Origin: a virus
DNA length: 48,600 nucleotides
Virus record (IMG/VR): IMGVR_UViG_3300036852_000356
Span: 1 to 48,600 of that record
Strand: one strand, 5' to 3'
In this document: positions 39,553-45,865 of the stretch, in pieces
Layout of the letters: every line of letters starts with the position of its first letter
Numbering within the stretch: the first letter of the stretch is position 1
Notes under the pieces: generated by a model
Told to the model about the DNA's origin: nothing
The model's input: only the letters and a program-made list of their open reading frames with translations
Database searches by the model: none
Translations under genes and position numbers: made by a program

Positions 39553-41309
39553 GCGACCTGTCCCATCTGCTGCGCGAGCGGGCCCATGAGCGTGTTCAAC
39601 GCGCGCAGGTCGGTGGCGCCCTGCCCGATCGCCTGCGTCGCATCCTCCACGGCCGCGGCCGGCTCGCCACCGGCCGCCGGGGCGCCGGGCTGGCCGATCG
39701 CGCCCGCCTGCGCCTGCGCCTGGGCGGCCTGCGCCTGCGCCTCGGCTTCGGCCTGCTGCAGCCGCTCGTTCACCAGCCGGGCGATCTCGGAGTTGGGGGC
39801 CATGGCGATCGCAAGGTCCAGCCCGGTGCGGTCGCCGGCGCCGGCCGCCGCGGCCACGTAGGCCATGATCGCCTGCTCGCCCTGCTCGCCTCGCAGCCGC
39901 TCCTTCTCCCGGCCGAGCTCGGCCAGGTTGGGCAGCTGCTCCATCGCGGTCTCCCGGGAGATCAGCCCGGCGGCGATCAGCTGGGAGACCATGACGGTGA
40001 AGTAGGAGGGGTTGACGCCCAGCAGGATCCCGTAGGTGGCTTCCAGCCAGTAGCGGCCGGCGAGGTCGTCGACCGGCACGTAGGTCTCGTCGAGCTCGCC
40101 GATCGGCTTGCGCTCGTTCGGGTAGAACGCCTCGTCCACGCACATGCCGGAGGCGAGGGTCTCGGTGTTCAGCCACGACCAGATCGTCTGGTAGGTGGAA
40201 AGCTGGGTGTCGACGGTGGCGCCGCCCAACGCGTCGATGCCCTTCCCGGTGGCGTAGCTCACGGGGCTCTGACCGTCGCGGGTGGCCGGGCGCCGGCTGC
40301 CCTTGTACAAGTGCTGCTCGAAGATGTCGAGCTCCCGCCACACGTCAGCGGGCATCTGCAAGCCGACCTTCTGGGCGGGGGCGGCGCCGCGGGGGCGGCG
40401 CATGATCGCCTTCGGACCTTCCTGCCAGCGCACGTCCTCGTCGATCTCGATCGGCGCCATCACCTGCTCCTCGCCGTACATCAGCAGCAGCGCGGTCATG
40501 CGGGCCTGGCCGAGGAGGACGCCGAGGAGCTGGTCGAACTGGCCTTCCATCGCCTCAAGCTTCACACCGGGCCGGGCGGCGCACAACAGCGTCGGCCGGG
40601 CGAGCTTGGCAGGCATAGGCCACTGGTAGAGCATCTCCCGCTCCCGCGGGAGGAACATGGTGATCTCGTCGCGGCCGTGATACCTGGCGACGGGCACCTT
40701 GTCCTGGTCCTCCAGGGGGACGCGCATCCCCGACCACGGGTTGACCTTGGTGAGCCGGGAGCGCACCTCCGGCCAGAGCAGGCCGATGTGGGCGCATGGC
40801 AGCTCGAAGGTGACGAAGCCGTCGACCGGCTGGGCGCCGTAGTGCTCGACCGGACCCGGGTAGTAGCCGGCCGGGTCGGCGAACTCGGCCAGGGGCGAGC
40901 GGAGCTGCTTGGGCGTGTTGTACGGCCAGATGCACACCGGCACGTAGCCGTACATGAGGAACCACAGCGCGCCCTGCAACGCCTGGACGGGCCAGTTCCA
41001 GTCGGCCCAGTAGCCGCGCACCGCGATCCTGCCGCGCTTGTCCGCCTGACGCTGCTCGCGCTTGGTGTCCTTCTCCTTGGGCGCGGAGATGGTGGGCAGC
41101 TTGGCGAGCATCTGCGAGTAGTCCTCAGCGGCCACGCGCAGGGCGTTGGAGACCAGGGGCCGGTCTGAGGGGGAGCGGAAGAAGTTGGGAAACGCCTCGT
41201 GGAAGCGGCCTTCCATGACCGCGGCGATGTCCCGGTTGCGCTCGTCCCGGGAGGCGAACAGCGCCACGCGGGCGTCGTAGATGGCGCACAGCTCGTACAG
41301 GGTCTTCAC
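39549..41309 (-). CDS. Portal protein, 586 aa
   Basis: ATG 41309 overlaps the HAD gene stop. It matches the expected portal size and place next to terminase. The crown-like N-terminal part (MKTLYELCAIYDARVALF onward) contains ANALRV-type interface stretches, a middle with FGWADWNW-like Trp motifs (GYWADWNWPVQALQGA), and a long helical wing/stem. The C-terminal 60 residues are Ala/Gln-rich (AQAQAAQAQAQAGA), the barrel-tail feature of some short-tailed phage portals. Assignment rests on size, order and pattern. Confidence 0.78.
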   Translation of the reverse strand: MKTLYELCAIYDARVALFASRDERNRDIAAVMEGRFHEAFPNFFRSPSDRPLVSNALRVAAEDYSQMLAKLPTISAPKEKDTKREQRQADKRGRIAVRGYWADWNWPVQALQGALWFLMYGYVPVCIWPYNTPKQLRSPLAEFADPAGYYPGPVEHYGAQPVDGFVTFELPCAHIGLLWPEVRSRLTKVNPWSGMRVPLEDQDKVPVARYHGRDEITMFLPREREMLYQWPMPAKLARPTLLCAARPGVKLEAMEGQFDQLLGVLLGQARMTALLLMYGEEQVMAPIEIDEDVRWQEGPKAIMRRPRGAAPAQKVGLQMPADVWRELDIFEQHLYKGSRRPATRDGQSPVSYATGKGIDALGGATVDTQLSTYQTIWSWLNTETLASGMCVDEAFYPNERKPIGELDETYVPVDDLAGRYWLEATYGILLGVNPSYFTVMVSQLIAAGLISRETAMEQLPNLAELGREKERLRGEQGEQAIMAYVAAAAGAGDRTGLDLAIAMAPNSEIARLVNERLQQAEAEAQAQAAQAQAQAGAIGQPGAPAAGGEPAAAVEDATQAIGQGATDLRALNTLMGPLAQQMGQVA

Positions 41310-41734
41310 GACAGGCTCCCGTGGTAGATCAGGTCACCAACGTCGTTGAGGGCCTGGTCCCAGTCAGTGAAGTGGACCGCCCGGTCGTCCAAGTAGGCGA
41401 CGGCGGGCAGCTTGCACTGGGTGACGAGGAGCTGCCCGCGGACGTTCCAGAAGGTAAGTCGACCGCTACCGTGGCAGGCTTCGCAGGAGTCCTCGGTATG
41501 GCCGAGGCAGCGACCGCAGCGGTCGTCGATCGTCACGTCGAAGCCGTGGCCTTCCAGCCAGGGCATGACCTGTTCCGGCTCGCGGCTGGTGAACACGAAC
41601 ACCGCGTGGTGGCGCATGAGCTGGCGAAGCGCGTCGAACGCACCTTCCACCGGCTCGTCGTAGATCGACCCGTCCTGCCACCCCTTGCTGTAGGCGTGGA
41701 TGACGCCGTCGAAGTCCACGGCCACTGTTCTCAC
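41306..41734 (-). CDS. HAD-family phosphatase with DnaJ-like zinc insertion, 142 aa
   Basis: GTG 41734 overlaps the terminase stop (GTGA) behind GGAGG; ATG 41746 is the alternative. The HAD core is clear: VAVDFDGVIH with the nucleophile Asp6, FTSREP as the threonine-loop, and YLDDRAVHF as the acidic motif IV. Between the last two lies CGRCLGHTEDSCEACHGSG, the CxxCxG pattern of DnaJ zinc fingers. HAD proteins act on phosphate esters such as nucleotides or nucleic-acid ends. Its place between terminase and portal is unusual. Confidence 0.75.
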   Translation of the reverse strand: MRTVAVDFDGVIHAYSKGWQDGSIYDEPVEGAFDALRQLMRHHAVFVFTSREPEQVMPWLEGHGFDVTIDDRCGRCLGHTEDSCEACHGSGRLTFWNVRGQLLVTQCKLPAVAYLDDRAVHFTDWDQALNDVGDLIYHGSLS

Positions 41735-43716
41735 GTACGCCTCCATCCGGCGGCCAGGGGGCTGGTCGCGTACGCGGTGTTCTGGAAGCCGGCCGCCCAC
41801 GGCAGCTCGCCTTTCTGCTGGCGGGCGTGGATCGGTGCCAGGTCGCGCGGGTTGCCGTAGTGGGTGGGGCCGTCGTCGGCGAAGGTGAGCCGGTCCCGGT
41901 TGAAATGGAAGAACCACTCGGCCATGAGGCAGTCGTCGGTGGCGCCCTCCGGGTAGGTGAGCGCCTCGCGGACGAGCGGCTCGCACCGGGCCTTGGAGGT
42001 GGTCGTCTTGCCGGGCAGGCGCACCTGGCCGTACATCCAGCGGGCGCCGACCGTCTCGATGCCGCGCTCCGGGTCGGCCTTGTTGATGCCGGTCGTGTGG
42101 GAGCGCAGGATCATGCCACGGGAGCGCAACCAGTGCTTGAAGAAGGCGTACTGGGACATGAACCGCTGCGCGGAGTTGTCCTCCAACACCAGGTAGCGGA
42201 TCTTGACGCCGAGCTCCCGGACTTTCACCACCGTCTCCTCGAGCACGCCGGTGTACACGACCGAGCCGGGTTCGAGGTCGAGGAGGTCGGAGGCGAGCAT
42301 GCGCCGGTGGTGCATGCCGATCAGGTAGTCGAGGTTGTTGGCCTTGTCCCACAGCCACGCCTCGATCGCCCACCAGCGGGTCGGCGACGGGTCGACGGTG
42401 ATCGCGCAGGCGTAGCGGCCAAGGGCCGCCTCCGGCAGGGGCTCCCACATGCCGCGGGTGTAGTCCCAGCAGCCGACGAAGCTGTTGCCCGCCTCGTCGG
42501 CCCCGCCCTCCACCCATTCGCGCTGGACGAGGGTGAGGCCGCGGGCAGCGTCGTGCTGCTGGTAGGTGAGCTCGAAGTCGGGGCCGAGCTGCACCTGCAA
42601 GGTGAGCACGCGCGACCAGGAGAACCGGCCCGGGTCGGCGAGGCAGCCGCCCGCGTGGGCACCAGGCTCCCGGCTCGACGGGTCGGCGCAGCGGCTCTTG
42701 TCGTGGATCGGGTAGACGATGTGCCGGTAGATGGGCCGCTGGTCGTTCTCGTCGTCGGAGTGCTGCACCTTCATGTCGAGCAGCCGGCGGAACAGGTCGT
42801 CGGGGCCGGCCCGGGTGCCGACGAGCACGACGAACCCGCGCGGCTCGACACGGCTCTCCGCCTCCGCGTGCCACCAGGAGGCGAGCTGCTCGCGGCCCTC
42901 CGGGGTGCGCTGGTTCTTCTTGGTGATCAGGTCGTCCCACACGACCACGTGGCCGCGGAAACCCAGGAAGGAGCTCTCCCTGCTCACCGCGAACACCGTC
43001 GGCTCCTTCTCGTCGAACCACACCCCGGGCAGGGTCTCCACCCGGAACGCCGTGCTCGACCAGAACACCGGGTTGAGCGGCCGGAAACGGCCGTACGCCG
43101 AGATCAGCTTGCGGTTGTTCTCCAACGTCTGCCGGATCCGCTCCGAGTAGGAGCGGGACTGGACCTGGGCGTCGGCGCCGAGCTGCACCCTGCGCTCCCG
43201 GCCCAGCGCCCGGTAGCGGACGATCAGCCACACGACCCAGTCATGAATGAACGTCGACTTGCCCGCGCCCGGGTAGACGTTGACGATCAGGTAGGTCGGG
43301 TCAGGCTCGACGGCCTGCTGGACGGCTTCCTCGGCGGCGGTGAGGTCCACCCCGGCCTCGTCCGACCAGGGCTGCTTGGACCTGCGGCCGAGGAAGTGCC
43401 AGCGGAAGAACAGGAAGTCGTCGACCCCGCGGCGGGCCTGCTCGTCGAGCTCCTCGTAGGGAACCGGCGGCAGGTCCAGGGTCTCCATGGAGTTCGTGTG
43501 CGCGCCACGCTTCGTGCCGGTGGTGAGCTCCCGGCCCTTGTTCACACCCCACGAGTAGGAGAAGCCGCACTCCTGCCCGGCCTTCCCAGGAGAGAAGCCT
43601 TTGGCGAGCAGCGCGCGGAACTTGGCCAGGTCCGCCTCGGTCGCGTTGCGGCGCCGCGCCGGCCGGCCGCCCGCGTGCTTGCGCTTGCGCGCCTCGTCGA
43701 TCTGCCGGACGGTCAC
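41731..43716 (-). CDS. terL: Terminase large subunit, 661 aa
   Basis: GTG 43716 just after the upstream stop. ATPase: Walker A YPGAGKST at residues 148-155 and the Walker B-like VVVWDDL at 257-263. The C-terminal nuclease part has ITVDPSPTRW and LEDNSAQRF acidic stretches that suit the RNase-H-like fold. A small HTH-like N-terminal part (FSPGKAGQECGFSYSWGVNK) may act as a built-in small-subunit function, as no separate small subunit is obvious. It packages DNA into the head through the portal. GTGTACAC at 42251-42258. Confidence 0.88.
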   Translation of the reverse strand: MTVRQIDEARKRKHAGGRPARRRNATEADLAKFRALLAKGFSPGKAGQECGFSYSWGVNKGRELTTGTKRGAHTNSMETLDLPPVPYEELDEQARRGVDDFLFFRWHFLGRRSKQPWSDEAGVDLTAAEEAVQQAVEPDPTYLIVNVYPGAGKSTFIHDWVVWLIVRYRALGRERRVQLGADAQVQSRSYSERIRQTLENNRKLISAYGRFRPLNPVFWSSTAFRVETLPGVWFDEKEPTVFAVSRESSFLGFRGHVVVWDDLITKKNQRTPEGREQLASWWHAEAESRVEPRGFVVLVGTRAGPDDLFRRLLDMKVQHSDDENDQRPIYRHIVYPIHDKSRCADPSSREPGAHAGGCLADPGRFSWSRVLTLQVQLGPDFELTYQQHDAARGLTLVQREWVEGGADEAGNSFVGCWDYTRGMWEPLPEAALGRYACAITVDPSPTRWWAIEAWLWDKANNLDYLIGMHHRRMLASDLLDLEPGSVVYTGVLEETVVKVRELGVKIRYLVLEDNSAQRFMSQYAFFKHWLRSRGMILRSHTTGINKADPERGIETVGARWMYGQVRLPGKTTTSKARCEPLVREALTYPEGATDDCLMAEWFFHFNRDRLTFADDGPTHYGNPRDLAPIHARQQKGELPWAAGFQNTAYATSPLAAGWRRT

Positions 43717-43718
43717 CG

Positions 43719-44369
43719 CTACAGCTCCGCCATGAACCGGATGTCGTCCAGGCGCACCCCGCCACCAGGCGAGGCCTGGGGAAGGACATTGCCGGAGACG
43801 CCCACGTTCACCTGCGTCATCGCCGCGGCACCCGACGGGCAGGCGAACTGCAGGCTGTTGGCGTCGCCGGGGCGGTAGCCGACGGGCAGGTTGAACGCGG
43901 CCAGGGCCGCGGTGCCGGAGACCACGCCGCCGCGGAGCAGGACCAGGCCCTCCGGGGTGCGCATGAACGCGACCGTGGCCACGCCGCCCTGCTGCACCCA
44001 GCTGTTCAGGAACGGCGGCTCGCCGGCGGCGCCGACCTCGTGCCAGAACTCCGGGTAGGCGCCCGCGCGGGTGCCCAGCCTGACCGGGGTGCCCTGCTTG
44101 TGGGCCTTGGCGGCGGGCGGTGGCGCCACCATCGGCGATTGCAGGTAGCCGCGTGTACACGTGGCGACGCCGGCGACGGAGAGGGCGGTCACCAGCACCT
44201 CTTCCCGGTCGGCGGGGTTGTCCGGGTTGATGGTCAGCCAGAACGGGGTGAGCGGGTAGCGGTCGTTGGTCCCGGCCGGGTTGTCGTGGCCGAGCTGCAA
44301 CGTGCCGTCGGCCGCCTCGGCCTTCGCGGCGAGGTGGTCGTCAGCGGCGTACAGGCTCCACTCGGGCAC
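43719..44369 (-). CDS. Virion-region beta-rich protein, 216 aa
   Basis: GTG 44369 behind CTAGGAGCGTGC. It begins MPEWSLYAADDHLAAK and is beta-rich through the middle, with Gly/Ala turns typical of decoration or fibre proteins, and ends GGGVRLDDIRFMAEL. GTGTACAC at 44153-44160 (read as CTR). It is upstream of terminase; a head-decoration or tail-tip role is possible. Confidence 0.6.
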   Translation of the reverse strand: MPEWSLYAADDHLAAKAEAADGTLQLGHDNPAGTNDRYPLTPFWLTINPDNPADREEVLVTALSVAGVATCTRGYLQSPMVAPPPAAKAHKQGTPVRLGTRAGAYPEFWHEVGAAGEPPFLNSWVQQGGVATVAFMRTPEGLVLLRGGVVSGTAALAAFNLPVGYRPGDANSLQFACPSGAAAMTQVNVGVSGNVLPQASPGGGVRLDDIRFMAEL

Positions 44370-44618: not shown

Positions 44619-44942
44619 TCAGGTCCTTTCGGCTGGCACCTGGCCGACCGGCTGCATCCCGCCGGCCGGGTACACCTTGGACAGCCCGGTCCCGTCCGCG
44701 TCGAGGCGGGGCCCGTCGCGGGAAACGATCGCCTGCCGGACGAAGGCGTCCTTCGCGTCGAGCAGATGGCGCAGGCCGACGGTGAGCTCCGGGCCGTCGG
44801 GCAGGGCGATCACCATCCTGCGGGCCAGGTCACCGCACGCCTCGGAGGTGGCCCGCAGCGGCTCGGGGAGGTGGTCCGCGTCGAACCAGCGGAGGATCTG
44901 CCGGGTGGCCTGGTGGCGGCCTTCCAGGTCGATGTCGGTCAC
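44619..44942 (-). CDS. acb2: Acb2/Tad1-hairpin-like cyclic-nucleotide sponge candidate, 107 aa
   Basis: GTG 44942 overlaps the upstream stop. Residues 8-80 show the paired-helix pattern of the Acb2 family: EPLRATSEACGDLARRMVIA, then LPDGPELTVGLRHLLDAKDAFVRQAIV, where the family typically has a Pro-Ser/Asp loop followed by a Leu-rich helix ending in a Trp/Phe-x-x-x-Ala-Ile. Acb2 proteins form hexamers that sequester cyclic oligonucleotides and so block CBASS and related defences. Position in the late operon beside head genes is common for it. Family by pattern; nucleotide-binding residues cannot be checked here. Confidence 0.65.
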   Translation of the reverse strand: MTDIDLEGRHQATRQILRWFDADHLPEPLRATSEACGDLARRMVIALPDGPELTVGLRHLLDAKDAFVRQAIVSRDGPRLDADGTGLSKVYPAGGMQPVGQVPAERT

Positions 44943-45418
44943 GGCCTGGTCTCCGGGTTGCGGCCGGCGCCCTCACCATCGACAAGGAGGGCCGGGTCGC
45001 GCGCGGGCGGGATGCCGGGCGAGCCGATGTCGGGAGTGACGTGCTCGGGGGCGACATGCTCGGCACCCTGGCGCAGCTCCGGGTCGCCGCCGACCGCGCC
45101 CGGCTTGCGTTCCGCGGTCGGCACGCCGCCGGGCAGGGGGCCTTGCGCCTCGGCGAAGTACGCCTCCCCCGTGTACACCTTCACCTGGCCGACCTTCGAG
45201 GGTTCGCCGTCGTCGTTCAAGAGCTGCACGACGGTGTGCTCGTCGGTGACCGCGCCATCCGAGGACGAGGTCGTGGAATGCTCGAGCACCGCGACGGGGC
45301 AGTCCCAGCCGGCGAAGATCGAACCGGGGTCGCCGATCATACGGGCGCGCACCCCGGGCGCGTCCACGCGCGCGGCGGCGGCCACCTTGTTGCGCGCGGG
45401 GACTTTCAAGCCGGCCAT
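44939..45418 (-). CDS. Virion-region protein, 159 aa
   Basis: ATG 45418 behind AGGAGGCGCC. The first leftward gene after the promoter near 45453. The N-terminal half contains beta strands (AVLEHSTTSSSDG, HTVVQLLNDDGEPSKV); the last 60 residues are disordered. VYT from GTGTACAC at 45172-45179. No known family. Confidence 0.65.
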   Translation of the reverse strand: MAGLKVPARNKVAAAARVDAPGVRARMIGDPGSIFAGWDCPVAVLEHSTTSSSDGAVTDEHTVVQLLNDDGEPSKVGQVKVYTGEAYFAEAQGPLPGGVPTAERKPGAVGGDPELRQGAEHVAPEHVTPDIGSPGIPPARDPALLVDGEGAGRNPETRP

Positions 45419-45592: not shown

Positions 45593-45865
45593 CTATTCGC
45601 CGAACGGGTCGTGGCCGGCCTTGTGCGGCCAGTGCCAGCAGCCGTCGTCGTAGCCGGGAGGGACACCCTTGACCAGGACCGAGCCGTCGGTGCTGGTGTT
45701 GAGCACCTGCAAGTTCACGGTGCCGGGCTCCTCCGAGCCGACGACGACGGCGGCCATCTCCGAAACGTCGGTGTACACGACGGTGGAGCCGAGCGTGGGG
45801 TCGGGCCAGGTCTCGGGCTGCTCCATGTCCAGGGCGGTCGGGCCGGCGGTGGTGAACACCATCAT
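45593..45865 (-). CDS. Small hypothetical protein, 90 aa
   Basis: ATG 45865 behind AGGAGTGGCCC (a second ATG at 45862). It begins MMVFTTAGPTALDMEQP; residues 28-60 alternate beta strands (STVVYTDVSEMAAVVVG), and it ends GCWHWPHKAGHDPFGE with Cys and His. VYT comes from GTGTACAC at 45771-45778. Small beta barrel likely; function unknown. Confidence 0.65.
   Translation of the reverse strand: MMVFTTAGPTALDMEQPETWPDPTLGSTVVYTDVSEMAAVVVGSEEPGTVNLQVLNTSTDGSVLVKGVPPGYDDGCWHWPHKAGHDPFGE

Follow-up and report, generated by a model that had tools for sequence, protein, structure and literature searches.

Does the short gene at positions 44619-44942 encode a counter-defence protein of the Acb2 type, and how close is it to Acb2 if the two are related? 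The question arises from a sequence-only reading that labelled the gene an Acb2-like anti-CBASS candidate in a late operon. The window, by which we mean the whole stretch of DNA analysed, is an entire virus record of 48.6 kb; its matches at the DNA level are to Gordonia phages, at the protein level both Gordonia and Mycobacterium phages are among them, and the virus carrying the gene is an actinobacterial phage. The open reading frame, with its ARRM..LPDGPELTVGLRHLLDAKDAF segment and a tail ending in VPAERT, is as that reading described it, and lies on the minus strand, which the reading had left unstated. The 107-aa ORF is a genuine gene, having tblastn homologues and matches to PHROG families, and it sits among the following features.

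44619-44942, minus strand: coding sequence of 107 aa, with a GTG start at 44942 and a stop at 44619-44621
44951-44954, minus strand: GGAG Shine-Dalgarno-like motif, 8 nt before the GTG, identified by reading the sequence
44939-45418, minus strand: upstream ORF of 159 aa without a family match, whose TGA overlaps the GTG of the 107-aa gene
43719-44369, minus strand: downstream ORF of 216 aa with weak minor-tail similarity (phrog_3285, 3e-5), where the structural module starts
41731-44160, minus strand: terminase large subunit ORF (phrog_38, 3e-40, residues 228-747)

From the GTGA overlap, the 107-aa gene is predicted to be translationally coupled to the 159-aa ORF. The true start of the terminase is probably further downstream than the start of its ORF. 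With a tail-like gene and the large terminase subunit downstream, it is fair to place the gene in a late operon, immediately ahead of the structural genes. The minus-strand ORFs upstream of the gene at 44939-45418 and 45593-45865 are orphans, with no Pfam or significant PHROG match. Elsewhere in the window, a minus-strand ORF at 41306-41800 encodes a phosphatase-like protein with a VDFDGVIHAY motif and a CxxC...CxxC insertion (phrog_1238, 2e-13), homologues of which directly adjoin relatives of the 107-aa gene at two loci (L022 and L027); apart from this protein at those two loci, no neighbours common to the window and the relatives were found.

AlphaFold2 models the 107-residue protein with a mean pLDDT of 87 overall and 96 in the core, where blocks reach about 97-98, and places helices at residues 11-20, 29-46 and 51-76. 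The parts of the protein map onto the DNA as follows.

44883-44912, minus strand: short N-terminal helix, residues 11-20 (AlphaFold2)
44805-44858, minus strand: hairpin helix A, residues 29-46, LRATSEACGDLARRMVIA (AlphaFold2)
44787-44804, minus strand: turn LPDGPE, residues 47-52, which aligns with the PDSRE turn of a bridge family described below
44715-44792, minus strand: hairpin helix B, residues 51-76 (AlphaFold2)
44622-44714, minus strand: C-terminal tail, residues 77-107, with pLDDT mostly about 60 and absent from relatives

The helical hairpin on which the sequence-only reading had staked its assignment is thus present in the model, confidently predicted and preceded by the short helix. 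Acb2 is built from a short helix at the N-terminus and, after it, an antiparallel hairpin of two helices (PMC10419184, PMC12043709), and the window protein is predicted to have the same arrangement of one short and two long antiparallel helices. Acb2 (T4 Vs.4; p26 of Pseudomonas phage PaMx33/PaP2; PDB 7uq2, 8h2j, 8ixz) is likewise a small phage protein, but the window protein carries an extra C-terminal tail of low confidence. This tail had been described as a fusion that ordinary Acb2 proteins lack; it is real, but it is a lineage-specific local addition outside the domain, and most relatives stop before it, at about residue 70-80. We considered an origin of the tail by read-through into the neighbouring gene's frame and rejected it, as the downstream frames of relatives are unlike the tail.

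The models were also compared with known structures, as the earlier reading had proposed. In BFVD, the Foldseek neighbours are the protein's own family first and then proteins named Acb2/Tad1 hairpin, at ranks 8, 14, 19, 25 and 36. The 50 listed Foldseek matches in the PDB contain no Acb2 or Tad1 entry with either model, in a search run without a positive control. PDB fold matches to complex I subunits and similar proteins had E > 0.3 and low TM-scores and were discarded. The core of the model is all-helical, and the N-terminal beta domain typical of Tad1 is predicted to be absent from it.

The window protein belongs to a large family that is without an assigned function in the PHROG library. 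It matches phrog_5120 (1.2e-23) and phrog_1761 (2.9e-20), both of which are also matched by all 78 aligned members, and its conserved core spans residues ~9-76. It differs from both profiles in having the additional tail, and from phrog_1761 in lacking an N-terminal extension of about 75 positions that this profile models. With the window protein as tblastn query (E<=1e-3), homologues are found in 339 GenBank phage records, and a proteobacterial member used as query finds 359; the family occurs in about 0.7% of phage records. There are at least 491 confirmed stretches with the family in IMG/VR and 194 in a collection of bacterial species, and the family is scarce on plasmids (25 of 72,556 records). 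Its carriers are phages or prophages of many phyla, with many mycobacterial, Gordonia, Vibrio and Acinetobacter phages among them; named examples are Gordonia phage DelRio (gene 12), mycobacteriophage BigNuz (gene 77) and Acinetobacter phage B1251. The position of the gene in the genome differs between phages, as it does for accessory genes. The 78-sequence alignment has no variation at E52, R58, D65 and R69, which is partly a selection effect, since many relatives were retrieved with the patterns R[KH]LL[ED][AS]KD and L[PG]DG[PA]E.

Some relatives carry the hairpin in longer proteins. It is found with an N-terminal zinc-ribbon or anti-TRAP-like segment in Ochrobactrum phage OH (L314:765-1133) and at L151:4803-5177, with a P-loop-like N-terminus (GDVGSGKS), also modelled by phrog_1761, in gp026 of Erwinia phage pEa_SNUABM_32 (L317:2261-2695), and with a long C-terminal extension, its C-terminal part without a PHROG match, in a protein of 155 aa in total (L073:3947-4411).

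That the window protein is an ordinary, recognisable Acb2, as the first label implied, is not supported. It has no match to PF24729, the Acb2_Tad1_hairpin family (cut-off 27 bits), nor does it match phrog_1454, a PHROG family that is itself matched by T4 Vs.4 (7e-4), and direct Pfam, NCBIfam and PDB-sequence searches with it returned nothing useful. PDB sequence searches, whether with the window protein or with the family profile, gave no Acb2. PF24729 touches 4 of the 78 members, those seen all being below the cut-off and the best relative reaching 17.6 bits; in one relative, L142, it matches exactly at the family gene (0.023 per genome, 0.0045 by Pfam scan). Hhalign of the family against Acb2 proper (Vs.4, p26) gave E 0.15-0.49, and against a large Acb2 alignment it scored equal to decoys, a result that we exclude as evidence. 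The family's scores with the Acb2 HMM also showed a shift (Mann-Whitney), which we set aside because family members are not independent of one another. Two sets of apparent matches fell away on inspection: a few members match the Pfam families Occludin_ELL, HEAT and DUF weakly, which is scattered helical noise, and the PF24729 matches in Gemmobacter, Acinetobacter and a planctomycete, which seemed to lie near family members, are actually on other contigs.

The residues that mark Acb2 are changed as well. The Acb2 proteins we fetched carry an N-terminal segment of the form IKGY..LS..EI..MN..K, a turn of the DQRW type and a QP end, none of which occurs in the window protein or its family. P51-E52 of the window protein stand where Acb2 has the arginine-tryptophan of DQRW. 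The turn arginine of SRE/DQRW, which is R67 (chain numbering) of PaMx33 Acb2 and a contact of cyclic trinucleotides, is replaced by P51 in the window protein and by P or A in the aligned relatives.

The relation to Acb2 becomes visible through intermediates. Of the 78 members, 43 weakly match phrog_1454 (E<1, best 4.2e-5), making it the third family after the members' own two, the next family being matched by only 9 members. Four phrog_1454 members from genomes match PF24729 at 69-72 bits, against its cut-off of 27. The bridge family that we assembled consists of the phrog_1454 members found in genomes together with related viral sequences, and is of the type F.YHPPKPGQ...IR..A..LA..I....PdSREkS.A.TKLEEAVMWaNAAIAR. 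The window family, with ...DLA..M...LPDGPEKS.GLRKLLEAKDC.VRAAL, can be aligned to it over the hairpin with no gap. By hhalign, the two families match with E 2e-5, a probability of 76-77% and a score of 29.9, which was reached by none of 200 column-permuted decoys (maximum 23.2, match columns only), by the reversed profile (11.6) or by any of 26 other locus-derived families (best 17.5). The bridge HMM gives 19.7 bits to its best family member, compared with a background maximum of 7.0 over 4,003 ORFs; the window copy is weak at 0.6 bits. On the far side, the best matches of the bridge profile in the PDB are 9ptq, 'Acb2 homolog 43' (4e-8), Tad1 (1.7e-4) and Vs.4 (0.027), the Tad1 match covering about 21 residues of its C-terminal hairpin only.

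The two families share a P-D-x-x-E-[KL]-[ST] turn and a K-L-x-E/D-A helix, common to most relatives, and differ in the SRE-turn arginine, which becomes proline or alanine in the window family, and in the MWxNAAIAR end, which becomes DCxVRAAL. R79 of T4 Vs.4 and R59 of relative L142 share one phrog_1454 column and, mapped through L142, R69 in helix B of the window protein falls in it too. Homology of the family to PF24729 through these intermediates is statistically supported at the level of sequence profiles, the window copy alone scoring weakly, and the window protein is, by this comparison, a divergent branch of the Acb2/Tad1-hairpin superfamily with a distant relation to its named members. 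The claim that the protein fits the Acb2/Tad1-hairpin family therefore survives as distant kinship through phrog_1454 and PF24729, and fails as direct membership.

Some relatives have telling neighbours. The hairpin of Vibrio phage 1.205.O makes up the C-terminal half of a 141-aa protein. The N-terminal half of this protein matches positions 13-86 of phrog_872, and the gene directly upstream encodes a crAss001_48-Tad2-like protein, whose Tad2-like part is matched by positions 87-172 of the same profile; this split match indicates that the same N-terminal (beta) module carries either a Tad2-like domain or the family hairpin. A Novosphingobium locus (L172) has three overlapping genes that encode, in order, a beta domain-Tad2-like protein, the family protein and crAss001_48, and in the related Novosphingobium clariflavum locus (L151) crAss001_48 is just upstream of the family gene. 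Alteromonas phage AD45-P3 has a Tad2-like gene about 1 kb upstream. Altogether, a Tad2-like match was seen in 6 of 88 records searched, and in 3 of these it is next to the family gene or about 1 kb away; this linkage is confined to three lineages, none of them actinobacterial, and Tad2-like PF11195 (DUF2829) was not found in the window genome. The partners, PF11195 and crAss001_48 (PF21825), are domains distinct from the family hairpin.

Beta domain (the phrog_872 N-terminus), Tad2-like, crAss001_48 and family hairpin occur variously ordered at L316:2186-3177 (phage 1.205.O) and L172:4309-5410, and it is possible that these modular clusters are a nucleotide-sponge cassette. Two further IMG/VR records (3300004463_000232 and 3300022750_000059, our L214 and L231) hold a classical IKGY-type Acb2 (PF24729) fused at its C-terminus to crAss001_48 (PF21825). 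The partner associations, present in a minority of relatives, make a common counter-defence role plausible. That much of the proposed counter-defence function holds up; the label 'Acb2-like anti-CBASS' goes beyond the evidence.

We consider the window protein most likely to be a divergent member of the Acb2/Tad1-hairpin superfamily that acts as a nucleotide-signal sponge, with a probability of about 0.5. Acb2 itself is a homohexamer that binds cyclic di- and trinucleotides and inhibits CBASS. As a sponge, the window protein would oligomerise through its hairpins, and the oligomer would bind, without cutting it, a small nucleotide-type signal of the host's defence. With the signal sequestered, CBASS, Thoeris or a similar system would not have its effector switched on during infection. 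Because the signature residues of Acb2 are missing, the protein could bind something other than the ligand of Acb2 and, if it is a sponge, a ligand or pocket different from Acb2's is likely, judging by those substitutions. Tentatively, phrog_5120/phrog_1761 may be a new large class of sponges, descended from the Acb2/Tad1 hairpin but with a different pocket, for a signal outside the range of Acb2 and Tad1. The further suggestion of cyclic-nucleotide signalling in the host lineage cannot be drawn from a single gene of predicted function.

The most durable alternative accepts the descent and gives the protein another job, in which it would bind some other sort of ligand or a protein of host or phage, perhaps as an inhibitor of a conserved host enzyme. 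The altered signatures would suit such a job, with P51-E52 in place of the DQRW arginine-tryptophan and the IKGY segment and QP end gone, as would the fusion of the domain to zinc-ribbon or P-loop-like N-termini in some phages. Identity to a Methylomonas member is often 75-88% for members from Erwinia, Vibrio, Alteromonas and Acinetobacter phages, and such closeness across phages of unrelated hosts suggests a well-conserved target. However, some relatives share their Tad2-like and crAss001_48 partners with known or candidate sponges, and we regard a different job as possible but doubtful. It is improbable that the protein is an unrelated short helical hairpin whose likeness to Acb2 and Tad1 arose by convergence of helical sequences: direct comparison with Acb2 is no better than decoys and the listed PDB fold matches hold no Acb2, but the bridge comparison stands above its permuted, reversed and other-family controls, the PDGxEKSxxxxKLxEA motif is collinear and the alignment gap-free from helix A through helix B, and genomic partners are shared. 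Least probable is a minor role in structure, assembly or the lysis module. The location might point that way, the gene being just upstream of the structural genes of the window and, in several phages, adjoining capsid, connector or tail genes; but the neighbours vary by phage, some regions are far from structural genes, fewer than 1% of phage records contain the gene and it has no good match to any structural family.

If the assignment of the window protein as a sponge is true, a widespread and nameless family, present in hundreds of GenBank phages, some of them in culture and open to testing, would become a set of candidate counter-defence sponges. The changed residues of the turn and helix would then predict another ligand or specificity, and could point to a host signal that has so far gone unrecognised.
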